This document shows, in pieces, positions 7,660 to 47,015 of a stretch of 64,000 nt of DNA. Both the position numbers and the translations under genes were made by a program. The notes beneath the pieces were generated by a model, which made no database searches, had not been told where the DNA came from, and worked only from the letters and a program-made list of their open reading frames with translations. Source of the DNA: Immundisolibacter cernigliae. GTDB lineage: Bacteria; Pseudomonadota; Gammaproteobacteria; Immundisolibacterales; Immundisolibacteraceae. The DNA lies in assembly GCF_001697225.1 (NCBI RefSeq), contig NZ_CP014671.1:2728001-2792000 (forward strand). Reading direction: 5' to 3'. The first letter of the stretch is position 1. Every line of letters begins with the position of its first letter.

Positions 7660-8411
7660 ATGGCACGGTTCGATGGCAAGTCGGTGATCGTCACCGGCGG
7701 CGGTTCGGGGATTGGCGCGGCGACGGCGCGGGCCTTTGCCGCCCAGGGCGCGGCGGTGATGATCGGCGACATCAACGCCAAGGCTGGCGAGGCGGTGGCG
7801 GCGGACATCCGCGCCAGCGGCCGCAAGGCGGCCTTTGCGACGGTCGATACGACGCAGAAAGCCAGCGTCGAGGCACTGGTCGCGGCAGCCGTGGCGGCGC
7901 ATGGCAAGCTGGACGTGGTGTTCGCCAACGCCGGCGTATTCGATGGCTTTCTGCCGTTCACCCAGATCGACGAGGCGCTGTTCGATCGTGTCATCGGCGT
8001 CAACGTGAAGGGCTATTTCTTTACCTGTCAGGCGGCCTTCGAGGAGCTGAAGAAAACCGGCGGCAACATCGTGATGACGGCGTCCGTGGCCGGGCTTGCG
8101 TCCGGCGGTGGCGGGGCGGCATACACGGCCTCCAAGTACGCCACCATCGGGCTGATCAACCAGATCGGCGTCGAAGCCGCCGCCCACGGCGTGCGCGTAA
8201 ACGGCGTGGCGCCCGGCGGCGTGAAGACCGGCATGACGGAGCATCTGATCGCCGACCCGGCAGTGGCCGGCTTCATCAGTCAGGGCACGCCGCTGGCGCG
8301 CTGGGCGGAGCCCGACGAAATCGCCGACGCGGTGGTATTCCTGGCTTCCGATGAGGCGCGCTACATCACCGGCACGGTGCTGCGCGTGGACGGGGGATGC
8401 GCTCGAAGTAG
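7660..8411 (+). CDS. short-chain dehydrogenase/reductase, frameshifted at its last codons
   Basis: NAD(P)-dependent alcohol/ketone oxidoreductase of the classical SDR family, about 250 residues when repaired. It shows the cofactor motif TGGGSGIG, DINAKAG after the second strand (Asp favours NAD), the NAG motif (FANAGVF), the catalytic serine region MTASVAG and YTASK. GGAGGAG precedes ATG 7660. The frame has no stop after VLRVDGG and runs on to 9006 through the next gene. One extra G in the five-G run 8392-8396 would give the usual SDR ending VDGGMRSK and the TAG at 8409-8411. It lies just upstream of a Rieske oxygenase, consistent with a dehydrogenase acting on oxygenated products. The substrate is unknown. 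Confidence 0.85.
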
Positions 8412-22357: not shown

Positions 22358-23713
22358 ATGAAGCCGAACGAGTTGACTGCGCCCGACATTGACCGGTTGG
22401 TCGTTGACCTGGCCGATCAGGGCGAATTTCATGTCCACCGCGACGTGTTCCGCGATCCGGCGGTGTTCGAGCTGGAGATGAAATACATCTTCGAGCGCAA
22501 CTGGGTGTTCGTGGGTCTGGACAGCCAGGCCCCGAACCCGAACGACTACTTCACCACCTGGGTCGGCCGCCAGCCGATCATCGTGGCGCGCGACAAGCAC
22601 GGCAAACTGGGCGCCTTCATCAACTCGTGCGCCCACAAGGGCGCACGCATTGCCCATCACCGTGACGGCAACGCCAAGCAGTGGGTGTGCTCGTACCACG
22701 GCTGGGCCTACGACACGGCCGGCGCGTGCATCTACATCAAGGACCAGGACGCCGGCTGCTACGCCGAGCCGTTCAACAAACTGGACCACGGCCTCAAGAA
22801 AGTGAAGTTCGGCCAGTACCGGGGCTTCCTGTTCGCCAGCCTGTCGGACGATGTGCCACCGCTCGATGAGCATCTGGGTGGGGCCAAAGAGCTTCTGGAC
22901 CTGGTCTGGGACCAGGGGCCGGACGGCATCGAGGCCATCCCCGGCGTGTCCAGCTACACCTACAACGCCAACTGGAAGATGCAGGTCGAGAACTGCATCG
23001 ATGCCTATCACCTGACCTCCTGCCACCCGAGCTTCATGAATATCGTCAGCCGCCGCAAGGCCGGCGAGAGCGACAACAAGCAGGTCAAGTCGATCGACTT
23101 CAACCTCATGTCGCAGGTCAAGGGCGGCGGCTACACCTTCCCGCGCGGTCACGCGGTAGGCTTTTTCGACAATCCGGTGCCTCAGGAACGCGGCCTGTAC
23201 CAGCATCACGATGAGCTGGTGGCCCGTGTCGGTGAGCAGAAGGCGCGCTGGATGTACGCCGGGCGCAACCTGACCATCTACCCCAACGTGCAATTCGCCG
23301 AGAACGCCTCGCTGCAGATGCGCGTCATCCGGCCGCTGTCGGTGGACAAGACCGAGATGACCATCTACTGCCTGGGCGCCAAGGGCGAGAGCGATGCCGC
23401 GCGCGAGATCCGCGTGCGCCAGTACGAGGACTTCTTCAACACCTCGGGCATGGCGACGCCGGACGATACGATTGCCTACGAGGACTGCCAGGTTGGTTTC
23501 AAGGCTAGCGTGCTGACCCAGATGCAGGGTTACGGGCGCGGCATGACCAACGTGGTGGCAGGTGCGGACGAGCGGGCGACGGAGGTCGGTTTCACGCCCG
23601 CCACCAGCTCGACCGGCCCCTTCGCCATGCAGGACGAGACCGTCATGTTCGGCGGCTACCGTGCCTGGAAGAAATTCATCAAGGACGGGCTGGCGGCCGA
23701 CGGCGTGGCCTGA
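22358..23713 (+). CDS. Rieske ring-hydroxylating dioxygenase alpha subunit, tandem paralogue 1
   Basis: Catalytic large subunit of a multicomponent aromatic ring dioxygenase. The 451-residue protein has the Rieske centre SCAHKGARIAHH...CSYHGW (C91, H93, C111, H114) and the mononuclear iron facial triad ENCIDAYHLTSCH (H218, H223; D215 bridges the two centres in this family). It is followed 44 bp later by a second alpha gene of exactly the same length. The first ~230 residues of the two are nearly identical, while residues ~240-300 and the last ~70 differ. They share the beta subunit gene at 25150. No ferredoxin or reductase gene is adjacent. Confidence 0.92.
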   Translation: MKPNELTAPDIDRLVVDLADQGEFHVHRDVFRDPAVFELEMKYIFERNWVFVGLDSQAPNPNDYFTTWVGRQPIIVARDKHGKLGAFINSCAHKGARIAHHRDGNAKQWVCSYHGWAYDTAGACIYIKDQDAGCYAEPFNKLDHGLKKVKFGQYRGFLFASLSDDVPPLDEHLGGAKELLDLVWDQGPDGIEAIPGVSSYTYNANWKMQVENCIDAYHLTSCHPSFMNIVSRRKAGESDNKQVKSIDFNLMSQVKGGGYTFPRGHAVGFFDNPVPQERGLYQHHDELVARVGEQKARWMYAGRNLTIYPNVQFAENASLQMRVIRPLSVDKTEMTIYCLGAKGESDAAREIRVRQYEDFFNTSGMATPDDTIAYEDCQVGFKASVLTQMQGYGRGMTNVVAGADERATEVGFTPATSSTGPFAMQDETVMFGGYRAWKKFIKDGLAADGVA

Positions 23714-23757
23714 TCCATCCGCCAGCCGAAACGACATCTGACCGGAGCCAGACACTC

Positions 23758-25113
23758 ATGAAGGCAAACGAACTCAAATTCAGCGACATCGACCGCCTGA
23801 TCGTCGACAACGTCGATCAACACGAATTCTGGGTCCATCGCGACCTGTACCGCGACCCGGCGGTGTTCGAGCTGGAGATGAAATACATCTTCGAGCGCAA
23901 CTGGGTGTTCGTGGGTCTGGAAAGCCAGGCGCCGAACCCGAACGACTACTTCACCACCTGGGTCGGCCGCCAGCCGATCATCGTGGCGCGCGACAAGCAC
24001 GGCAAACTGGGCGCCTTCATCAACTCGTGCGCCCACAAGGGCGCACGCATTGCCCATCACCGTGACGGCAACGCCAAGCAGTGGGTGTGTTCCTACCACG
24101 GCTGGGCCTACGACACGGCCGGCGCCTGCATCTACATCAAGGACCAGGACGCCGGCTGCTACGCCGAGCCGTTCAACAAGCTCGATCACGGTCTCAAGAA
24201 GGTCAAGTTCGACGCTTATCGGGGCTTTCTGTTCGCCAGCCTGTCGGACGACGTACCGAGCCTGGACGAGCACCTGGGCGATGCCAAGAAGATGCTGGAC
24301 CTGGTCTGGGACCAGGGTCCGGATGGCATCGAGGCCATCCCCGGCGTGTCCAGCTACACCTACAACGCCAACTGGAAGATGCAGGTCGAGAACTGCATCG
24401 ATGCCTATCACCTGACCTCCTGCCATCCGAGCTTCATGAACATCGTCAGCCGCCGAAAGGCTGGCGAAAGTCGCAACACGCAGGTCAAGTCGATCGACTT
24501 CAACGTCATGGACGTAGTCAAGGGCGGCACGGCCTGTTTCCCCCGCGGCCATGCCGTCATCTACGCCACCAATCCCCTCGAGAACGAGCGCGGCATGTTC
24601 GTGCACAGGGACGAGGCGGTCGCTCGCTGCGGCGAGACCAAGACCAAGTGGATGCTGGCCACGCGCAACCTGACCATCTACCCCAACGTGCAGTTTGCCG
24701 AGAACGCCTCGCTGCAGATGCGCGTCATCCGGCCGCTGTCGGTGGACAAGACCGAGATGACCATCTACTGCATTGGCGCCAAGGGCGAGAGCGACGCCGC
24801 GCGCGAGATCCGCATCCGCCAGTACGAGGACTTCTTCAACACCTCGGGCCTGGCGACGCCGGACGACACCATTGCCTACGAGGATTGTCAGTTCGGCTTC
24901 CAGGCCAGGAATCTGGAATGGCTGCAGGGCACCGCGCGCGGCATCACCGGCTACCACACCGGCCCCGACGAACTGTCGCAGGAAATCGGCATACGGCCGG
25001 ACAGCGGCTTCATGGGTGCCATGGGCGCGTGGGACGAGACCGTCTATTACGGCGGCTACCGGGCCTGGAAGCAGTTCATCAAGGACGGGCTGGAAGCCGA
25101 CGGCCTGCTGTGA
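23758..25113 (+). CDS. Rieske ring-hydroxylating dioxygenase alpha subunit, tandem paralogue 2
   Basis: Second alpha subunit, also 451 residues, offset 1400 bp from paralogue 1. It has the same Rieske (SCAHKG...CSYHGW) and mononuclear iron (DAYHLTSCH) motifs. Nucleotides 23932-24089 match 22532-22689 without a mismatch, so duplication or gene conversion is recent. The variable block (VVKGGTACFPRGHAVIYATN ... KWMLATR) replaces paralogue 1's QVKGGGYTFPRGHAVGFFDN ... RWMYAGR, and the C-terminal region also differs. These segments line the substrate pocket in structurally known relatives, so the pair may have split substrate ranges. Confidence 0.92.
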   Translation: MKANELKFSDIDRLIVDNVDQHEFWVHRDLYRDPAVFELEMKYIFERNWVFVGLESQAPNPNDYFTTWVGRQPIIVARDKHGKLGAFINSCAHKGARIAHHRDGNAKQWVCSYHGWAYDTAGACIYIKDQDAGCYAEPFNKLDHGLKKVKFDAYRGFLFASLSDDVPSLDEHLGDAKKMLDLVWDQGPDGIEAIPGVSSYTYNANWKMQVENCIDAYHLTSCHPSFMNIVSRRKAGESRNTQVKSIDFNVMDVVKGGTACFPRGHAVIYATNPLENERGMFVHRDEAVARCGETKTKWMLATRNLTIYPNVQFAENASLQMRVIRPLSVDKTEMTIYCIGAKGESDAAREIRIRQYEDFFNTSGLATPDDTIAYEDCQFGFQARNLEWLQGTARGITGYHTGPDELSQEIGIRPDSGFMGAMGAWDETVYYGGYRAWKQFIKDGLEADGLL

Positions 25114-28957: not shown

Positions 28958-30535
28958 ATGCCGCTGCGCAGCACGCGTCGCGACTTGTTGAAATTCATGA
29001 GTGCCGGCGGCCTGCTGGCGCTGGCCGGTCTGTACCCGGCCCATGCGCTGGCCCGCGCAAGCCTGGGGCCAAAGCGCAAGTTCAGTATGGACACACTGCG
29101 CGAACAGGCCCGCCAACTGGCCGCCCGGCCGTATGTCGCGCCGACGATTCCGGATGCGCAGCTGCTGTACACGATCGACTTCGACGCCATCCAGAAAATT
29201 CGTTTCAAGCCCGAACAGGCCCTGTGGAACGAGCCGCCGTCAGCCTTCGGCGTGCAGCTGTTCCACCCGCACCGCTTCGCCCAGAAGCCGGTGCGCATCC
29301 ACCTGGTGGAGGGTGACGAGGCGCGCGAGGTGCCGTTCTCGACCGACCTGTTCGACTACGGCACGTCGGGACTGGCGAAAAAAATGGCCGGTCACGGCGG
29401 CTTTGCCGGTTTTCGGGTGATGGACCCGGCGCCGGCCAAGACCGACTGGCTGGCGTTCCAGGGCGCGTCCTATTTCCGCACCGGCGGCGTGCAGGGCCAG
29501 TACGGCCTGTCGGCGCGCGGCATCGCCATTGACACCGCCATGCCACAGCCGGAGGAGTTTCCGGACTTCACCGCGTTTTATCTGGAACGCCCGGTCGGGG
29601 ACCGCATCACGCTGTACGCCCTGCTCGACGGGCCCAGCCTGACCGGCGTGTATCGCTTCGTGTGCACGCGCGCCAAGCCGGTGTTGACCGAGGTCCACGC
29701 CGAGCTGTTTGCGCGCCAGGACATCGGCCGCCTGGGCGTGGCGCCGCTGACCAGCATGTTCTGGTACGGCGAGAACAACCGCCGGCGCAGCGCCGATTGG
29801 CGGCCGGAAATCCACGACTCCGACGGCCTGGCGCTGTGGACCGGGGCCGGCGAGCGGCTGTGGCGGGTGATCGAGAACCCGCCACTGGTGATGACCTCGT
29901 CGTTCGTGGATTTCAACCCGCGCGGTTTCGGCCTGTCGCAGCGGGACCGCAATTTCGAGAACTACCAGGACGATGGCGCCTTCTACGACCGCCGTCCCTC
30001 GGTGTGGGTGCAGCCGCTGGGCGACTGGGGCGAGGGCGCGGTGCAGCTGGTCGAAATCCCGACCGACGACGAGATCCACGACAACCTGGTCGCCTACTGG
30101 ACGCCCAAGGAGCCGGTGCGCGGTGGCAGCGCCTGGACCTTCGACTACCGCCTGTACTGGGGTGATGACGAGCCATTCATCCCCGAGGTCGGGCGCGTGC
30201 GCCACACCTGGCGCGGGCGCCACGGCATTCCCGGTATCGCCGCCCAGCAGGCGGCGCAGCAGGCCTCGGGGATGAAGTTCGTCATCGATTTCTCCGGCGG
30301 GCCGCTGGCGGCGCTCGAGCAGCGCTTCGACCTGACGCCCATGGTGACCGCCTCGCGCGGACGGGTGGACAACGCGCATGTGCTCAAGGTGGTCGGCACC
30401 GATCGCTGGCGGGCCTCGTTCGACCTGTACGTGGACGGCGCCGAACCGGTTGAACTGCGCTGCTACGTGCGCCTCGGTGACAAAACCCTGACCGAAACCT
30501 GGCTGTACCAATACATTGCGGCAACCTCATGCTGA
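28958..30535 (+). CDS. opgD: glucan biosynthesis protein OpgD (MdoD), Tat-exported
   Basis: Periplasmic protein that shapes osmoregulated periplasmic beta-1,2-glucans; E. coli OpgD is reported to be a GH186 beta-1,2-glucanase. The 525-residue protein has a Tat signal (STRRDLLKFMSAGGLLALAG) ending around ALARA. Family motifs follow: IRFKPEQALW, GGFAGFRV, ASYFRTGG, SMFWYGEN, PEIHDSDGL, GFGLSQRDRNFENYQD and GDWGEGAVQLVEIPT. The next gene starts 7 bp before its stop. It is the first of five tightly packed genes (opgD, opgG-like, opgG, unknown, opgH). Confidence 0.92.
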   Translation: MPLRSTRRDLLKFMSAGGLLALAGLYPAHALARASLGPKRKFSMDTLREQARQLAARPYVAPTIPDAQLLYTIDFDAIQKIRFKPEQALWNEPPSAFGVQLFHPHRFAQKPVRIHLVEGDEAREVPFSTDLFDYGTSGLAKKMAGHGGFAGFRVMDPAPAKTDWLAFQGASYFRTGGVQGQYGLSARGIAIDTAMPQPEEFPDFTAFYLERPVGDRITLYALLDGPSLTGVYRFVCTRAKPVLTEVHAELFARQDIGRLGVAPLTSMFWYGENNRRRSADWRPEIHDSDGLALWTGAGERLWRVIENPPLVMTSSFVDFNPRGFGLSQRDRNFENYQDDGAFYDRRPSVWVQPLGDWGEGAVQLVEIPTDDEIHDNLVAYWTPKEPVRGGSAWTFDYRLYWGDDEPFIPEVGRVRHTWRGRHGIPGIAAQQAAQQASGMKFVIDFSGGPLAALEQRFDLTPMVTASRGRVDNAHVLKVVGTDRWRASFDLYVDGAEPVELRCYVRLGDKTLTETWLYQYIAATSC

Positions 30536-32013
30536 ACTGGCGCAGCCTGGGTTTGCTGCTGGCCGCGTGGGCCGGCGCTGCCAGCGCAACCGGCAAGGAC
30601 TTTGATTTCGACGCCCTGAAAGCGCGCGCCCGGCAGCAGGCGGCGGCTGCGTACAGCCCTCCGCCGGAGGCCGACGGTGCCCTGGCGCAGATCGATCCCG
30701 CGCGCCGGGATGCGGCGCCGCTCAAGGCCCGCTACGCGCCGTGGTCGATGGCCTCGCGCTTCGTGCCGCTGCCGCTGGCGCCGCGCGCCGGCTGCGCGCT
30801 GACACTGTTCAATTCCATTCAGGCCAGCGGCATCGAGCGCTTCGACTACCGGCCGGAACTGTTCGACTGGCCGGCGGCCGGCCTGCCGGCGCCGGGGCCT
30901 GCCGCGACGGGTTTTTGCGGCTTTCGCCTGCTGTATCCGTCGGCTGGGGACGGCAAACGTGAGGACCTGGCGCGCTTCGAGGGCGATGCCTGGCAGCTGG
31001 TCGGCACCGGCGCGCTGTTCGGTGCGGCCGCACTCGCGGTCGGGGTGATCGACAACGACGGTCGGGCGCAGCCGGTGCCGTTTCGCGAGTTCTGGCTGGT
31101 GCGCCCGGCGGCCGGCGCCCGTCAGCTGCGGCTGTATGCGCTGGCCGATTCGCCGGCGTTGGCGGCTGCGTTCCAGATCGACCTGGTGCCGGGCGTTGCC
31201 AGTCGCGCCGACGTGCAAGTGGCGCTGTATCCGCGGGAAGGCGCCGGCAAACTGCTGCTGGCGCCGCTGGCCGGCAGTTTCGTGCAGGGGAAGCATCGAC
31301 CGGCGCGCGTGTTGCCGCTGCAGGCCGAGGTGCACAGCGTGGATGGACTGGCCATCCACACCGCCGCTGGCGGCTGGTTGTGGCGGCCGCTCGACAATCC
31401 ACCCGAGCGCAGCGCCTACAGCTTTCTGGTCAACACGCCGCGCGGGTTCGGCCTGTTGCAGCGTGATCGCGACGCCAGCCACTACGAGCCGGACGCGCCG
31501 CAGCCCCGCCAGCCGGATGTGTGGCTGGTGCCGGGCGGCGACTGGGGGGCCGGCCAGCTGCTCCTGCTCGAAGCGCCAGCCGGCAGCGCCGCTGTGCGCA
31601 ACGTGCAGGTCGGATTCGTGCCCGACCAGCAGCCGGCACCCGGCGCGGGGATGGAGCTCGGCTACGCCGTCCACTGGTCGACCGACGCGTCGCTGCCGCG
31701 TGCCGGCGGCTGGGTGATCGCCACCCGCAGCGGTGCCGGAGGGAACGATGGCAGCCGCCGCTATGCGGTGGATTTCGTCGGCCCGGCCCTGCAGGGGCTG
31801 CCGTCCGGCGCGGCGCCAGTGGCGGTCATCGACATCGGCCGCGGCGGCAGCCTGCAGCGCCAGCAAGTGGTGGCCAATCCGCATACGGGTGGCTGGCGTC
31901 TGCTGTTCGAGTTCAACCGTGAAACCGACGCCCCGCTGCAACTGCGCGCCTATTTGCAGCACGCCGACCAGCCTCTGACCGAAACCTGGGACTATGTCGA
32001 TCCGCCTCGCTGA
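30529..32013 (+). CDS. divergent OpgG/OpgD paralogue lacking several conserved motifs
   Basis: A 494-residue exported protein (Sec signal LGLLLAAWAGAASA) of the OpgG fold, recognisable by GFCGFRLLYP, FREFWLVRPAAGARQLRLYAL, PRGFGLLQRDRD and GDWGAGQLLLLEAP. It lacks the SMFWYGEN block found in its neighbours. The HDSDGL/HSSDGL motif is HSVDGL and the YQD motif is YEP. It overlaps opgD by 7 bp and opgG by 20 bp, so it is cotranscribed. It is probably not an active hydrolase of the GH186 type; a structural or partner role is inferred. Confidence 0.82.
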   Translation: MLNWRSLGLLLAAWAGAASATGKDFDFDALKARARQQAAAAYSPPPEADGALAQIDPARRDAAPLKARYAPWSMASRFVPLPLAPRAGCALTLFNSIQASGIERFDYRPELFDWPAAGLPAPGPAATGFCGFRLLYPSAGDGKREDLARFEGDAWQLVGTGALFGAAALAVGVIDNDGRAQPVPFREFWLVRPAAGARQLRLYALADSPALAAAFQIDLVPGVASRADVQVALYPREGAGKLLLAPLAGSFVQGKHRPARVLPLQAEVHSVDGLAIHTAAGGWLWRPLDNPPERSAYSFLVNTPRGFGLLQRDRDASHYEPDAPQPRQPDVWLVPGGDWGAGQLLLLEAPAGSAAVRNVQVGFVPDQQPAPGAGMELGYAVHWSTDASLPRAGGWVIATRSGAGGNDGSRRYAVDFVGPALQGLPSGAAPVAVIDIGRGGSLQRQQVVANPHTGGWRLLFEFNRETDAPLQLRAYLQHADQPLTETWDYVDPPR

Positions 32014-33523
32014 TTACCTGCGGCCATCGCGACGGCCCCGGCCGCCTGGGGCTTCTGCTGTGCCGGGGGCCGGTCGGCGCTGGCTGGTGGGCCTGGGCTG
32101 CTGGCTGCTGCTGGCGGCGGCGCAGGGCGCCGAGTTCGACTGGTCGCAGGTGGTGCAGAAAGCACGTGAGCGCGCCGCGGCGCCCTACCAGCCCATGCCG
32201 GCGCGCCTGCCCGACTGGCTGCTGCAGCTCGATTACCGCGCCTGGCAGGACATTCGCTTCGACCCGAACGCGGCCCTGTGGGCGGGTGAGGACCTGCCGT
32301 TCTCGGTCCGCTTCCATCATCCGGGCAGCATCTATCGCCAGCCGGTCGCGATCAGCCAGATCGAATCCGGGCAGGCCAAGCCGCTGGCTTTTGCGCCGGG
32401 GCAGTTCTTCTACGGGCCGGGGGTGGATCGCCAGCGGGTGCCGGGCGATCTGGGTTACGCCGGTTTCACCGTCTACGCGCGCAACAAGGACAGCTGGCAG
32501 CCGGTGCTGGAATTCCTGGGCGGCAGCTTCATGCGCGGCGGGGCGCCGCTGCTGCCCGGCGGCGTGCGGTCGCGGGCGCTGGCCATCGACACCGGCCTGC
32601 CCAGTGGCGAGGAGTTCCCGGTCTTTACCGATTTCTGGCTGGTGCGGCCCGCGGCGGGCGCCAAACGGTTGACCGTCTACGCCCTGCTCGACTCGCCGCG
32701 TGTCAGCGGTGCCTATCGGATCGAGCTGACGGCTGGCGCGCAGCTTGTCACGCAGATGGACAGCGAACTGTTTTTCCGCGATGCGGTCGGCCGGCTGGGC
32801 CTGGGCCCGCTGTCGAGCATGTTCTGGTATGGCGAAAACGGCCCGCTGGTGGACGACTACCGGCCGGAGGTGCACAGCTCCGACGGGCTGCTGGTACATG
32901 CCGGCAAGGAGCGTCTGTGGCGTCCGCTGGCCAATCCGCAGCGCCTGGGACAGCAGTCGCTGCCGGTGCCGCCGGCTGCGGTCTACGGCCTGCTGCAACG
33001 GGACCGGGATTTCGAGCATTACCAGGATCTGGACGCGGCCTTCGAAGCGCAGCCGGGCGTGGTGCTGGAACCCCAGAAGGGTTTCGGCGCCGGCCGGCTG
33101 GAGCTGCTGGAACTGCCGGTGCGCGACGGCTTGAACCAGAACGTGCTGGCCTATTTCGTGCCGCAGGCCAAGGTGCGGGCCGGCGATCACCTGTCGCTGC
33201 GCTACCGCCTGCGATGGGGTGATCGGGAGCCGGGTGAAGAAGCCGGCCGGGTGCTCGCCACGCGCATCGCCCGCCAGGACGGCGTCAGCACCCACCAGAT
33301 CGATTTTGCATCGCTTGGCGCCGGCAGCGTGCCGCCGAAGCCGCAAATCAGCGTTCAAGGCGGCAAGGGTGGCGAGCCCGTCGTGCAGGCGCTGGGCGAC
33401 GGCTGGCGGTTGACGCTGCCGGTAGAACACGACGACGGCGCGCCGCTGACGATCCGTGCCGGCCTGCTCTCGGACACCGGCAGGCGCAGCGAAACCTGGC
33501 TGCATCACTTCGGTGAGGATTGA
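31994..33523 (+). CDS. opgG: glucan biosynthesis protein OpgG (MdoG)
   Basis: Periplasmic protein needed for beta-1,2-glucan backbone formation or release. The 509-residue protein has a hydrophobic signal (WLVGLGCWLLLAAAQG) after a basic N-terminal extension. It then shows YRAWQDIRFDPNAALW, GYAGFTVY, GGSFMRGGA (in place of ASYFRTGG), EEFPVFTDFWLVRP, SMFWYGENGPL, EVHSSDGL, GLLQRDRDFEHYQD and LELLELPV. Its ATG lies 20 bp inside the previous gene. A shorter start would place the signal nearer the N-terminus. It ends 4 bp before the small unknown gene. Confidence 0.92.
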   Translation: MSIRLADYLRPSRRPRPPGASAVPGAGRRWLVGLGCWLLLAAAQGAEFDWSQVVQKARERAAAPYQPMPARLPDWLLQLDYRAWQDIRFDPNAALWAGEDLPFSVRFHHPGSIYRQPVAISQIESGQAKPLAFAPGQFFYGPGVDRQRVPGDLGYAGFTVYARNKDSWQPVLEFLGGSFMRGGAPLLPGGVRSRALAIDTGLPSGEEFPVFTDFWLVRPAAGAKRLTVYALLDSPRVSGAYRIELTAGAQLVTQMDSELFFRDAVGRLGLGPLSSMFWYGENGPLVDDYRPEVHSSDGLLVHAGKERLWRPLANPQRLGQQSLPVPPAAVYGLLQRDRDFEHYQDLDAAFEAQPGVVLEPQKGFGAGRLELLELPVRDGLNQNVLAYFVPQAKVRAGDHLSLRYRLRWGDREPGEEAGRVLATRIARQDGVSTHQIDFASLGAGSVPPKPQISVQGGKGGEPVVQALGDGWRLTLPVEHDDGAPLTIRAGLLSDTGRRSETWLHHFGED

Positions 33524-41545: not shown

Positions 41546-42430
41546 TCAGCCGGCCTCGAACACGCCCTGTTCGATCAGCTCGTACCAGGCCAGCAGGTCC
41601 TTGCGGCCATGACCCTTTTCCACCGCCTGCGCATACAGGCTCTGGATGCGGCTGCCAACCGGCAGGTGCACACCCACCCGCTCGGCCAGCTCGCGCACCA
41701 GGGTGATGTCCTTGCAGATCATGGTCAGACCGTCGGTGCTGTGGTCGAACGGTGCGCGGCCGTCGAACTTGGGCTTGACCAGCACCTCCATGACCCGCGT
41801 CGGCGCCAGGCAGGTGTCCATCACCTCCAGCAGGCGCTGCGGCTCGATGCCGACCGCCCGGCCCAGGGCGATCGACTCCATGACGCCCGACAGCGTGGAG
41901 ACCAGAATCAGGTTCTGGCACAGCTTGGCGGTCTGGCCGCTGCCGGCCGGTCCCAGGTGAAAGATGTGCTTGCCCATCAACGCCAGCAGCGGCTGCGCAC
42001 GTTCGAACAGGGCTGCCTCGCCGCCGACCATGATGCCGAGTGTCGCCGCTTGCGCCCCGGCTCCGGCGCCGCTCAGCGGCGCGTCCAGAAAGCCGATGTC
42101 GTGGCGTGCCGCGTCCTGCTCCAGCTCGCCGGCCAGCTGCGGGCTGATGGTGCTGCAATCGACGATGGCGCCGCCCGGCTGCAGGGTGCCCAGCAGGGCA
42201 TCCACCGTGGCGCGGACGACTTTCTGGCTCGGCAGGCAGGTGAACACGATCTGCGCGCCCTGCCCGACGACGGCCGCGTCGGCGCAGGCCGTGATGCCCT
42301 GTTCCACCGCCGCGGAAAGCGCCGAAGCCGACGGGTCGTAACCGAGCACCCGATACCCGGCACGCGCCAGATGGCCGGACATGGGCAGGCCCATGGTGCC
42401 CAGGCCGATGAAACCGAGCACCGGTTTCAT
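41546..42430 (-). CDS. NAD(P)-dependent 3-hydroxyisobutyrate dehydrogenase / tartronate semialdehyde reductase family protein
   Basis: A beta-hydroxyacid dehydrogenase of 294 residues. The Rossmann motif GFIGLGTMGLPMSGHLARAG opens the protein. DCSTISPQLAGELEQDAA (in parts) and FLDAPLSGAGAGAQAATLGIMVGG cover the substrate loop, and the catalytic Lys lies in GQTAKLCQNL. GRKDLLAWYELIEQ ends the protein. It follows the CMD gene by 4 bp in the operon with the Rieske subunits, which suggests reduction or oxidation of a small hydroxyacid from ring breakdown. The exact substrate cannot be told from sequence. Confidence 0.88.
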   Translation of the reverse strand: MKPVLGFIGLGTMGLPMSGHLARAGYRVLGYDPSASALSAAVEQGITACADAAVVGQGAQIVFTCLPSQKVVRATVDALLGTLQPGGAIVDCSTISPQLAGELEQDAARHDIGFLDAPLSGAGAGAQAATLGIMVGGEAALFERAQPLLALMGKHIFHLGPAGSGQTAKLCQNLILVSTLSGVMESIALGRAVGIEPQRLLEVMDTCLAPTRVMEVLVKPKFDGRAPFDHSTDGLTMICKDITLVRELAERVGVHLPVGSRIQSLYAQAVEKGHGRKDLLAWYELIEQGVFEAG

Positions 42431-42979: not shown

Positions 42980-43474
42980 TCAGATCTGATTGAAATCGAT
43001 CGGCAAATCGAGATGGTCGTTCAGCAGCGTGATCTTCTTGCGCGCGATGCGCCAGCGCTCGCCGTCGCGCACCAGCGTGTGGTCGTAAAAACCGAACAGG
43101 TGCACGGTCTGGCGCCGGTGGTAGGTACTGGTCTGCCAATGGCTGCTGACCTGCAGCTGCGTGGCGTCCGGCGCCGTGACGTGCACGTTGCTGATGACGT
43201 GGCAGGTGCGCGGCAGGGGCGTGACGAAGGGCGTCAGGCCCGATTCGACCCGAAACACCCGGTCGCCGAGCGCCGCGCGGCCGGCAAGGTAGAAGAACGA
43301 CACGTATCGGTCCGGGTCGTCGCCCAGGGTCTCCTCATCCACCCAGGCCGGGCACCAGAACTCGCAGTCGTCGGTGAACATGTCCAGCCAGTCCTGCCAC
43401 TGCCAGCGGTCCAGGCAGTCGGCTTCGCGAAAGACCGCCGCGGCGGCGGCCATGTGCAGTTCGGGACTGACCAT
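42980..43474 (-). CDS. ring-hydroxylating dioxygenase beta subunit (island 3)
   Basis: Small NTF2-like subunit of a Rieske dioxygenase, 164 residues. Family features are READCLDRWQWQDWLDMFTD, DDCEFWCPAWVDEE, VSFFYLAGRAALGDRVFRVE, TPLPRTCHVISNVHV and RWRIARKKITLLND. Its ATG overlaps the alpha-gene stop by 1 bp (TGATG), showing translational coupling to the large subunit. It resembles the beta subunit at 25150 in layout, but the sequences are well diverged. Confidence 0.92.
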   Translation of the reverse strand: MVSPELHMAAAAAVFREADCLDRWQWQDWLDMFTDDCEFWCPAWVDEETLGDDPDRYVSFFYLAGRAALGDRVFRVESGLTPFVTPLPRTCHVISNVHVTAPDATQLQVSSHWQTSTYHRRQTVHLFGFYDHTLVRDGERWRIARKKITLLNDHLDLPIDFNQI

Positions 43475-44928
43475 CAGCGGGCCTCCCCGGCGGCCAGTTC
43501 GCGTCGCTGGCCGTCCTTCATCAGGCGCAGCCACTGCCGGTAGTTGGCGTGGAACAGCGTCTCGTCGGACATGTTCAGTGACCCTTCGCTGCTGGTTTCG
43601 GGTTCTATGCCCAGCTCGCGGGCATAGTCGTTGGCGCCGCGCACCATGCGCCCCAGGCCGCGGCCGTGGCCCTGCAGCCACTCGACCGCGCGTGCCTGCA
43701 TGCCCTCCTGGCAGTTTCGGTAGGCGCCGAAGTCGTCCGGCGTGCCGGTGGAGCTGATGTTGAAGAAGTCCTCGTACTGGCGCAGACGCTGGCGGCGCGC
43801 GGCAGGCGGCTCACCGACCGGCACCCAGCAGTAGATCTCCATTTCGGTCAGATCCGTGGCCAGCGGACGCAGCACGCGGAACTGGCCAATCACGGCGTTG
43901 TCGGTGCACTGCACGTTCGGAAAAATGGTCAGGTTGCGCCCGTATTGCAGCAGCCATTTGGCCCGCCCGGCCCCCAGGCGCGCGGCGATCTGCTCGCGCT
44001 GCGGCCACAGCGGGCGAAACTCCGGCGCCGGGTTTTCGGTGAAGAACAGCGCATGGCCGTTCTTGAGGCCAAAGCTGCCGGTTTTCAGGTTGATGCCGAA
44101 CATGGCCTCGATGTCCGGCCCCTTGTAGGCCGCCCCTGCACGCGCGATGCGCCTTTGCTGGCGCTGCTGGCAGACATCAAGCGCCTAGGCCGCCCCTGCA
44201 CGCGCGATGCGCCGGCGGGTGATCTCGATGAAGCCCTTGTGGGCGATGTTCAGGTGGTAGCCGTCCAGGCAGTTCTCGACCTGCATTTTCCAGTTGCCCG
44301 GAAAGGTATAGCTGGCGTTGCCGCGCACCAGTTCCATGCCATCCGGCGCCTGCTCGACCAGCAGGTCGATGAACACCCGCGCGTCGCCCAGGTGCTGCTC
44401 CAGCGGCACCACATCTGCATTCAGGCTGCCGAAAATCCAGCCGCGGTATTCGGCCAGTTTCGGCACGGCCTGCAAATCGTGACTGTGCGCCTCGAAGGCT
44501 GGCGTGTAGGCGGCGTCGGTGTGGTCCTTGATCGACACGCAGCGGCCATTCGTGTCGAAGGTCCAGCCGTGATAGGTGCAACTGTGGAACTTGCGGTTGC
44601 CGCTGCGATTCAGGCACACCAGCGAGCCCTTGTGCGTACAGGTGTTCAGGAAGGCTTTCAGCTCGCCAGCGGCATTGCGCGTGACCAGCACCGGCTGGCG
44701 GCCGATGTGAGTGCTGAAAAAATCATGCGGCTTGGGCAGCTGCGAAGCGTGGCACAGGAACACCCAGTTCGACTCGAAGATGTACTTCATCTCCAGCTCG
44801 AACAGGAACTCGTCGCGGAATATGTCGCGGTGGACGGCGAACTGGCCCTCGTCGATGCGATCGTCGATGTAACGATCGAAATCGACCGGGCCTGCGGCCG
44901 GCACGGGCCGTTCTACAGGTCGGTTCAT
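43474..44928 (-). pseudogene. Rieske dioxygenase alpha subunit interrupted by a 60-bp insertion with an amber stop
   Basis: The N-terminal part (ATG 44928 to TAG at 44187-44185) has the Rieske motif CTHKG...CTYHG (C97, H99, C117, H120) and the iron site ENCLDGYHLNIAH. The C-terminal part continues in the same frame to the stop at 43474. Between them, the 28 bp at 44186-44213 recur at 44126-44153, exactly 60 bp apart, around an unrelated 32-bp spacer. Removing 60 bp gives an uninterrupted 464-residue alpha subunit reading ARAGAAYKGPDIEAMFG across the junction. GAGGGGG precedes ATG 44928. Real disruption, readthrough or assembly error cannot be distinguished here. Confidence 0.88.
44126..44213. 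repeat. 28-bp direct repeat flanking a 32-bp spacer inside the Rieske alpha gene
   Basis: Positions 44126-44153 and 44186-44213 are identical. The 32 bp between (44154-44185) do not recur nearby. The total insertion is 60 bp, which keeps frame but brings a TAG on the minus strand. This is not a simple tandem duplication, since only 28 of the 60 bp are repeated. Confidence 0.95.
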
Positions 44929-45120
44929 TTCCCCCTCGGCTTGTGGTGCGCACCCGCGGCCGGTCGGCGTCGCCGGGAGCTGGTGCGTGCTTGAAACGGC
45001 GGCCATTATGAACGGCCGTTAGGGTTTGACGCCAGTACGTGCCGCCGCCTTGACGATCATCAATTCCGGGCCGGCACAAGCGCGAAGAATGGCCGCTTCA
45101 TCCCGAGGACGGAGACGACG
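44929..45120. promoter_or_regulatory. divergent control region between Rieske alpha and TenA/PqqC-like genes
   Basis: A 192-bp gap between divergent catabolic genes, so it must hold both promoters. The perfect 10-bp palindrome AACGGCCGTT lies at 45011-45020, followed by TTGACG at 45026-45031, a possible -35 for the plus-strand gene, although no convincing -10 follows. The palindrome is a candidate operator for a regulator not in the window. Confidence 0.35.
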
Positions 45121-45879
45121 ATGGACCAGGCCGTACACGCCCCCGATTACCTGCGTGACCTGAAAGCCGACTGGCTGGTCGAGCTGCGCGCCGAGGTCAT
45201 CGAACCGATTCGTGCCAGGGCGGTGGCGCACCCGTTCATCGCCCAGGTGGCCGCCGGCACCTTTCCGGTCCACAAGCTGCGCCGGTTCTTCGCCGACCTG
45301 TGCTGGACGGTGATCACTACCCCTGGCGTGGTGGCCAGTCTGGCCGCCCGCACGCCGCACTACGAGCACCCGATCAAGACCAAATTGCTGGAGAACGCCT
45401 ACACCGAGTGGAACCACGCCTTCGCGCTGTCGCAGACGGTCAATGCCCTGGGCGGTCCGGGTGACCGGATATTCAACGGCCCGGAAACGGCCTGGGAGGC
45501 GCTGCCCTATGCCTGGCACCTGCGCAACTGGCAGCTGCTGTACGCCTACAACCAGCCGTGGCTGGAAGGCATCGCGGCGTTCGCGGTCGGCATCGAGGCG
45601 CTGGTGCCCAGCATCATCCACCCGCTGTGGAAAGGCTGCGAGCAGCACTATGGCCTCGACGGCGAGGCGCTCGACTGGCTGGTCTGGCACGGCGGCGAGG
45701 TCGAGATGCAGCACGGCAACGACGGCCTGTTCATCCTGGAACAGAAGGTTCCGGCCGCGGACCGGGCGTTGCAGGCGCAGCTGCGCTCGGTGGTGCACAA
45801 GACCATGCTGGTGCTCGGCGAGCACTGGCTGGATTACTACTACCGGGCCGACGAAGCCCCGGCTGTCACCGCTGCCTGA
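45121..45879 (+). CDS. TenA/PqqC-like haem-oxygenase-fold protein (possible diiron enzyme)
   Basis: A 252-residue all-helical protein of the TenA/PqqC/CADD-like superfamily. Conserved acidic and His positions that could bind iron are LLENAYTEWNH, VGIEALVPSIIHPLW and WHGGEVEMQHGND, matching the E...H...E...H spacing of haem-oxygenase-like diiron oxidases. There is no pqq or thiamin operon nearby. It is divergent from the broken Rieske operon and 26 bp before the M29-like gene. The role is probably oxidative and linked to the same catabolic pathway (inference). Confidence 0.75.
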   Translation: MDQAVHAPDYLRDLKADWLVELRAEVIEPIRARAVAHPFIAQVAAGTFPVHKLRRFFADLCWTVITTPGVVASLAARTPHYEHPIKTKLLENAYTEWNHAFALSQTVNALGGPGDRIFNGPETAWEALPYAWHLRNWQLLYAYNQPWLEGIAAFAVGIEALVPSIIHPLWKGCEQHYGLDGEALDWLVWHGGEVEMQHGNDGLFILEQKVPAADRALQAQLRSVVHKTMLVLGEHWLDYYYRADEAPAVTAA

Positions 45880-45905: not shown

Positions 45906-47015
45906 ATGATCAAGGAAATCGATTTTCGGACCACACCACGCCTGTGCAGCGAGGCGCAGGTGCGCGAGGGCGCGCGCAACCTGCTGGTGAACTGCTGCGA
46001 GGTCAAACGCGGCACTGAGTTGATGATCGTGAACGAAAACGGCCTGGTGGACCCGCCCGTGGCCGCCATCATCCAGGACGAGGCACGCAAGCTGGGCGCG
46101 CGGGTCCACGTGCTGTGGGCCGACGCCATCAGCGGTCCGGACGATGTACCGCGCACCCTGCTGGCCGCGGTGAGCCAGGCCGACGTGACGCTGCTGAATC
46201 ACCTGATGGCGGCGGTGCTGCGCCTGGTGCCGTTCGAGGGCCGGGGCCAGAAGGTGATGAATCCGCTGACCACCTGGGATCAGCTCGGCTCCGAGTACGC
46301 GCGCATCCCGTTTCAGGTCAGCGCCGAGATACTGAAAGCCCTGGCGCCGCAGCTGGCGGCGGCCGGTGACTACCAGGTCACCTGCCCGCTGGGCACCGAC
46401 CTGCGCGCGCCGCTGCATCCCAAACCGGCCGCGCCGGCGGCGGTCGACAGCTTCACGCTGCGCACCTTCCCGCTCAGCGTGACGGCGGTTTATTCGTGCC
46501 TTGAGGCGAGTGGCCGGCTGGCCATCCGCTGGGTGACGCCGTCCACCATCCGCGTCATGAAGGCCAGGGGCGTGATCCTGCCGGGCCCGGTGCTGGCGAC
46601 ACTGGAAAACGGCCGCATGGTGGACTTCGAGGGTGAGCCGGCTGCGGTGGACGCCCTGCGCCGGTACCTGGATACGGCCGGCGCCGAAATCCACAAGGAC
46701 GGCTACATCGTCAATTCCTGGCACATGGGCACGCATCCGGGGTGCTTCACGCACCTGCGTCCGCAGGACGATATGTTCGGCTGGATCCTGCACGCTCACG
46801 GCAACCCGCGCCTGGCGCACTTTCACGTCATCGGCCAGGCGCCGCCGGGCGAGGGCTCGATGCCGCTGCTGGACCCCACCGTGCGCTTCGGCGGCAGGAC
46901 ACTGTGGGAACACGGCCGCCTGCTGCTGGCGGATGATCCGGCGTTTCGGGCGCGTATCGCAGCCTGGGGCGATCCGGACCGGCTGTTGCAGGCCGATCCG
47001 AACGTGGGGGTCTGA
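45906..47015 (+). CDS. M29 aminopeptidase-T-like metalloprotein (possible NicX-type ring-cleavage enzyme)
   Basis: A 369-residue protein resembling the M29/thermophilic aminopeptidase fold, a family that also includes the extradiol-type dioxygenase NicX (2,5-dihydroxypyridine cleavage). Supporting stretches are ELMIVNENGLVDPPVAAIIQDEARKLGA in parts, CPLGTDLRAPLHP, a metal-site-like NSWHMGTHPGC and FHVIGQAP. ATG 45906 is the first start after the preceding stop. In a dioxygenase setting, ring cleavage or amide hydrolysis is more attractive than peptide processing, but the call is tentative. It is cotranscribed with the TenA-like gene. Confidence 0.65.
   Translation: MIKEIDFRTTPRLCSEAQVREGARNLLVNCCEVKRGTELMIVNENGLVDPPVAAIIQDEARKLGARVHVLWADAISGPDDVPRTLLAAVSQADVTLLNHLMAAVLRLVPFEGRGQKVMNPLTTWDQLGSEYARIPFQVSAEILKALAPQLAAAGDYQVTCPLGTDLRAPLHPKPAAPAAVDSFTLRTFPLSVTAVYSCLEASGRLAIRWVTPSTIRVMKARGVILPGPVLATLENGRMVDFEGEPAAVDALRRYLDTAGAEIHKDGYIVNSWHMGTHPGCFTHLRPQDDMFGWILHAHGNPRLAHFHVIGQAPPGEGSMPLLDPTVRFGGRTLWEHGRLLLADDPAFRARIAAWGDPDRLLQADPNVGV

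Follow-up and report, generated by a model that had tools for sequence, protein, structure and literature searches.

A NicX-related protein family with a putatively rebuilt metal site, linked to Rieske oxygenase genes in Immundisolibacteraceae and Rhodobacterales

The closest described system is NicX, the 2,5-dihydroxypyridine 5,6-dioxygenase (PDB 7cn3, 7cnt, and 7cup; PMC7910607). Its iron ligands, as given in that source, are H265, S302, H318, and D320. The last two form an HxD motif, which was found in 13 of 13 NicX-type proteins, 9 of 9 M29 proteins, and 5 of 5 intermediate M29-like proteins compared here. In the M29 aminopeptidases (PF02073), the other ligands of the dimetal site are two Glu, one His, and one Tyr. 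The protein compared with these systems is encoded at positions 45906–47015 (+) of the window, i.e., the whole 64,000-nucleotide stretch of the Immundisolibacter cernigliae genome (3.24 Mb, a single contig) that was analysed.

These coordinates, taken from the original prediction, were correct: the gene starts with an ATG at 45906, ends with a stop codon at 47013–47015, and encodes 369 amino acid residues. Two congeneric Immundisolibacter orthologues show 91% and 93% identity to the protein. The dN and dS values of these two pairs, calculated with NG86, were 0.043 and 0.278 for one and 0.051 and 0.286 for the other. Since the resulting dN/dS is approximately 0.16–0.18, the protein is constrained; in other words, the reading frame is a true gene under purifying selection. 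A search of the protein against Pfam and NCBIfam gave no model at E ≤ 0.1, and a single-sequence search of the PDB gave nothing meaningful. Weak matches to Rieske proteins in the latter search (E 0.15 and above) were regarded as chance.

Relatives of the protein form a family of 38 distinct members from Immundisolibacteraceae and Rhodobacterales. When a profile of 14 sequences, one of which was an intermediate protein (L010), was searched against the PDB, NicX (7cn3) was the sole sensible match with an E-value of 5.1e-5, and no peptidase was matched. This profile also matched lectins and designed proteins, at E 0.069 or higher; these matches were taken to be chance. The 38 members, now without L010, were aligned by HH-align with 13 NicX-type proteins at an E-value of 1.7e-13 (98.0%, 292 columns). 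The nearest profile match outside the family is the set of five intermediate M29-like proteins (L010, L091, L092, L047/L079, and L048/L080), which was aligned at an E-value of 1.8e-25 (99.7%, 312 columns); a PDB search with L010 itself found nothing. In contrast, HMM-HMM comparison of the family with nine M29 proteins, taken from 9 of 100 genomes, gave no direct link (E 0.035, probability 1.5%). The intermediate set matched the M29 proteins at an E-value of 6.4e-6. Thus the family appears, from these profiles, to be tied to M29 through the intermediate proteins and at the superfamily level alone.

The original prediction had called the protein M29-like and had placed it nearer to NicX than to the peptidases. 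The former holds in this remote sense of superfamily kinship, but not in a stricter one: PF02073 did not match the protein at E ≤ 0.1, and a search of the whole genome with this model at E ≤ 0.01 gave no match, whereas a control search detected it in 4 of 14 well-known genomes. The latter is borne out by the profile comparisons. The likeness to NicX extends over the full length of proteins of similar size, and the C-terminal hairpin of NicX is aligned with the family without gaps. NicX and the family also share a catabolic setting.

The family proper was found in 4 of 398, 19 of 195, and 7 of 144 genomes, the genome studied here being included in the sets of 398 and 144. Four of the eight matches in the 398-genome count (G174, G296, G501, and G520; 43–46 bits) were left out as members of the NicX set, and two of 21 matches in the 195-genome count (G670 and G700) and one in the 144-genome count (G127) as members of the intermediate set. 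Twelve matches, approximately 30% identical, were found on plasmids, all from Rhodobacterales genera and all annotated as hypothetical (12/12 records). No family relatives were found in a search of IMG/VR. In a FastTree tree of 65 sequences rooted on M29, the 38 members formed one clade (support of 0.979) outside NicX and the intermediates, in which the ten Immundisolibacteraceae members formed a nested clade. The intermediates were grouped with NicX with weak support. No description of such a NicX-related family came up in a literature search. On sequence grounds, the protein is therefore a member of an apparently undescribed family of the NicX/M29 superfamily: a new family of known fold.

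The family differs from all three comparison sets in the metal site. The aminopeptidase dimetal ligand set, which had been named beforehand as the finding that would count against ring chemistry, was looked for, and the HxD pair was absent from 38 of 38 members. Residue 316 is Glu in 32 and Asp in 6 members, and residue 318 is Ser in 28, Ala in 6, and Cys in 4. Because E/D316 and S/A/C318 stand in place of HxD throughout the family, neither the NicX nor the M29 ligand set is, as judged from the alignments, retained. H318 of NicX was aligned with E316 in nine of nine MAFFT runs and three of four hhalign runs (with H307 in the remaining one), and D320 with S318 in all nine and all four. H265 was aligned with H273 in three of nine MAFFT and four of four hhalign runs, and with S271 in the other six MAFFT runs. 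S302 was aligned with V308, H307, N300, I294, or a gap, depending on the method. Of the four residues that hold the iron in NicX, no more than one seems to be clearly kept: H265, perhaps as H273. Residues of NicX that recognize the substrate are not kept either: E177 corresponds to a gap (9/9 MAFFT) or to V180 or A178 (hhalign), and H189 to T187. A NicX-type site, as originally expected, is thus not supported.

Other polar residues have become fixed. H273, R302, H305, H307, and D323 are invariant in all 38 proteins. The stretch NSWHMGTHPGC, which had been read as a metal site in the original prediction, corresponds to residues 270–280 (46713–46745, +). It is the most conserved block of the family, with S271, W272, H273, G275, and P278 kept in 38 of 38 members, and H273 is a putative ligand; the metal-binding reading of this block stands to that extent, but the HxD pair of NicX and M29 has been given up. 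The second block, codons 302–318 (46809–46859, +), contains R302, H305, H307, P314, G315, E316, and S318, some of them candidate ligands, where NicX has S302 and the HxD motif. H273, H305, H307, and E316 might constitute the metal site. It should be mentioned that the register is uncertain from residue 293 to residue 316, and one HH alignment, made with the intermediate set, places H305-x-H307 near HxD. AlphaFold2 models were unusable (mean pLDDT of 41.8 for the protein alone and 39.3 with one relative added), so spatial clustering of the four residues is hypothetical. Cupin dioxygenases with a 3-His-1-carboxylate metal site exist; their ligands would be of the same types as those proposed for the family, and their fold is unrelated.

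The genes around the protein in the window agree with the aromatic catabolic setting that had been proposed. Upstream in the same direction (45121–45879, +) lies a gene for an iron enzyme of the haem-oxygenase-like kind, which matched PF14518 at 38.4 bits, the cut-off being 28.9. The stop codon of this gene is 26 bp before the start codon of the NicX-related gene; the two probably form one operon. Divergent from it are the genes of a Rieske oxygenase α subunit of the benzoate 1,2-dioxygenase type (43474–45006, −; Pfam/NCBIfam), which is interrupted; a Rieske β subunit (PF00866; 42980–43474, −), the called frame of which opens at 43681, with the ATG at 43474 as the probable start; a carboxymuconolactone-decarboxylase (CMD)-family protein (PF02627; 42435–43139, − as called, with the true start probably further in); and a 3-hydroxyisobutyrate-dehydrogenase (HIBADH)-like NAD(P) dehydrogenase (41546–42430, −; Pfam/NCBIfam). 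A 60-bp insertion, composed of a repeated 28-bp piece and 32 bp, brings a TAG into the α-subunit frame at 44187–44185 (−); the repeat-insertion region spans 44126–44213 (−). The gene is intact in two congeneric genomes (L003 and L072), and the interrupted copy may be a genuine pseudogene or result from an error of assembly. The haem-oxygenase-like protein is not an obligate partner, because its gene is deleted in L003, an Immundisolibacter MAG, where a remnant of the 3′-end precedes the NicX-related gene (7706–8001). No relatives of this protein were found on the plasmids searched. Elsewhere in the window, a tandem pair of Rieske α subunits precedes a TPP-dependent enzyme (22358–25113), and three MdoG (OpgG) proteins are encoded in tandem (28958–33523).

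The linkage to Rieske genes recurs in Rhodobacterales. Twenty-eight loci were compared: six plasmid loci, picked for spread from the 12 matches, 21 genomic loci (L051–L071; L067 is truncated where its contig ends), and a further locus at the end of a contig (L081). The plasmid records and genomes may in some cases share species. Genes were counted within 9 kb by tblastn at E ≤ 1e-5. Of the 28 loci, 22 had a Rieske α subunit near the family gene and 17 had an AhpD-like gene; a solute-binding protein of the amino-acid type was encoded in 16. A sarcosine-oxidase-like α subunit was matched in 13, including one match of 28% at the locus edge (L052). No Rieske gene was nearby in six loci, two of which are cut by a contig end. 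Together with the genes of the window, these counts uphold the earlier view that the neighbours favour ring chemistry. Orthologue-grade Rieske genes (>400 bits), sought in the 19 family-bearing genomes, amounted to 21 copies in 18 genomes, and 16 copies were at the family's own locus. Across the 195 genomes, 17 of the 19 that carry the family had a Rieske orthologue, versus 11 of the 176 that lack it (Fisher p 2.8e-15, kinship being ignored).

The Rieske partners themselves are not of one kind. Four Rhodobacterales Rieske proteins are 49–72% identical to one another and only 25–32% identical, over 62–154 residues, to that of the window; the one tested is of the VanA_C type (PF19112). Since the Immundisolibacter neighbour is of the benzoate-dioxygenase type and differs from the Rhodobacterales partners, the family is linked to Rieske oxygenases of two unlike kinds. 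Both settings also have CMD/AhpD-type genes.

A paralogue with 47% identity is encoded at 1096827–1097945 of the same genome. At seven Immundisolibacteraceae loci of this type (L013 and L073–L078), a solute-binding protein and a flavin reductase were present in 7/7, and no Rieske gene was found with the Rieske queries used. At L013 (5570–10042), the paralogue adjoins an NMT1/THI5-like solute-binding protein, a flavin reductase, an SRPBCC-like reading frame, and a BphC-type VOC protein.

Two unlike Rieske links, NicX ancestry, and the invariant His/Glu residues lead us to favour, tentatively and short of calling it probable, a metal-dependent enzyme that has a rebuilt metal site and would act after a Rieske oxygenase, opening or processing a ring or converting its first product. 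The protein would bind one catalytic metal, Fe(II) being the first choice, through H273, H305, H307, and E316, and this set would replace H265, S302, H318, and D320 of NicX. The enzyme would open or further convert the ring previously oxygenated by the partner Rieske oxygenase, and the same short pathway would also include the CMD/AhpD-family protein, besides a dehydrogenase or oxidase. The benzoate-dioxygenase-type neighbour seems to make an aromatic carboxylate, or the product of its oxygenation, the likelier substrate in Immundisolibacter. For the clusters of Rhodobacterales, homarine or another N-methylated ring compound may be considered a candidate. The sarcosine-oxidase-like complex of the marine clusters presumably resembles N-methylglutamate dehydrogenase in kind; the β subunit of one cluster, however, scored 514 bits, below the soxB cut-off of 529. 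As an idea, NicX-like cleavage of a hydroxylated N-methylpicolinate could yield an N-formyl-N-methylglutamate-type product. Mgd is described as taking part in homarine catabolism (PMC13390433), and a literature search gave no account of homarine-pathway genes beyond a paper cited there. Several points stand against ring opening or processing: the low pLDDT of the structural models, the uncertain register at residues 293–316, the loss of the NicX substrate residues, the occurrence of the family at loci without a Rieske gene (6/28 in Rhodobacterales, and the Immundisolibacteraceae paralogue type), and the interrupted partner α subunit in the present strain. A bolder form seems unlikely: the protein would found a family of oxygenases that cleave rings with the NicX/M29 fold and a 3-His-1-carboxylate site that arose after loss of HxD; the unlike Rieske-initiated pathways that recruited it would act on aromatic acids in Immundisolibacter and on N-methylated ring compounds in marine Rhodobacterales.

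The same conserved polar residues would suit many metal chemistries, and it is possible, but rather doubtful, that the protein uses this fold as a hydrolase, lyase, or decarboxylase that depends on a metal and acts, without O2, on a ring-opened or de-aromatised product and not on the ring. The superfamily includes the M29 hydrolases, the family keeps neither known ligand set, and the product of a VanA-type Rieske partner need not be ring-opened next. Against this, the family profile is nearer to NicX than to any peptidase; the Rieske and CMD context fits both a ring enzyme and such a hydrolase, lyase, or decarboxylase, and is not decisive. Strict membership in NicX or in M29 was rejected by the HxD test (0/38 members). 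A strict NicX-type dioxygenase would need a shifted register, H305-x-H307 holding the metal on the HxD strand in place of H318-x-D320. The position of HFH near VHLD in the alignment with the intermediate set and the pairing of H265 with H273 in part of the runs are consistent with it; the alignment of H318 and D320 with E316 and S318, the missing Asp, and the absent substrate residues make it improbable. Loss of the ancestral metal motif and the interrupted Rieske gene nearby could also point to a protein of this fold that is regulatory or no longer catalytic, but a His/Glu/Arg set invariant in 38 proteins and the low dN/dS make this more improbable still. An M29-type aminopeptidase shares the remote superfamily, and relatives of NicX are often annotated as leucyl aminopeptidase; with neither a PF02073 match nor a direct HMM-HMM link, no HxD, and catabolic neighbours, it is hardly credible.

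A family that has had no domain model could supply a step so far missing from Rieske-initiated catabolism in soil and marine bacteria. It would show that the metal site was exchanged inside one fold, among peptidases, NicX, and this NicX-related family. Because Rieske, sarcosine-oxidase-like, and transporter genes are linked to it, growth substrates can be tested directly.
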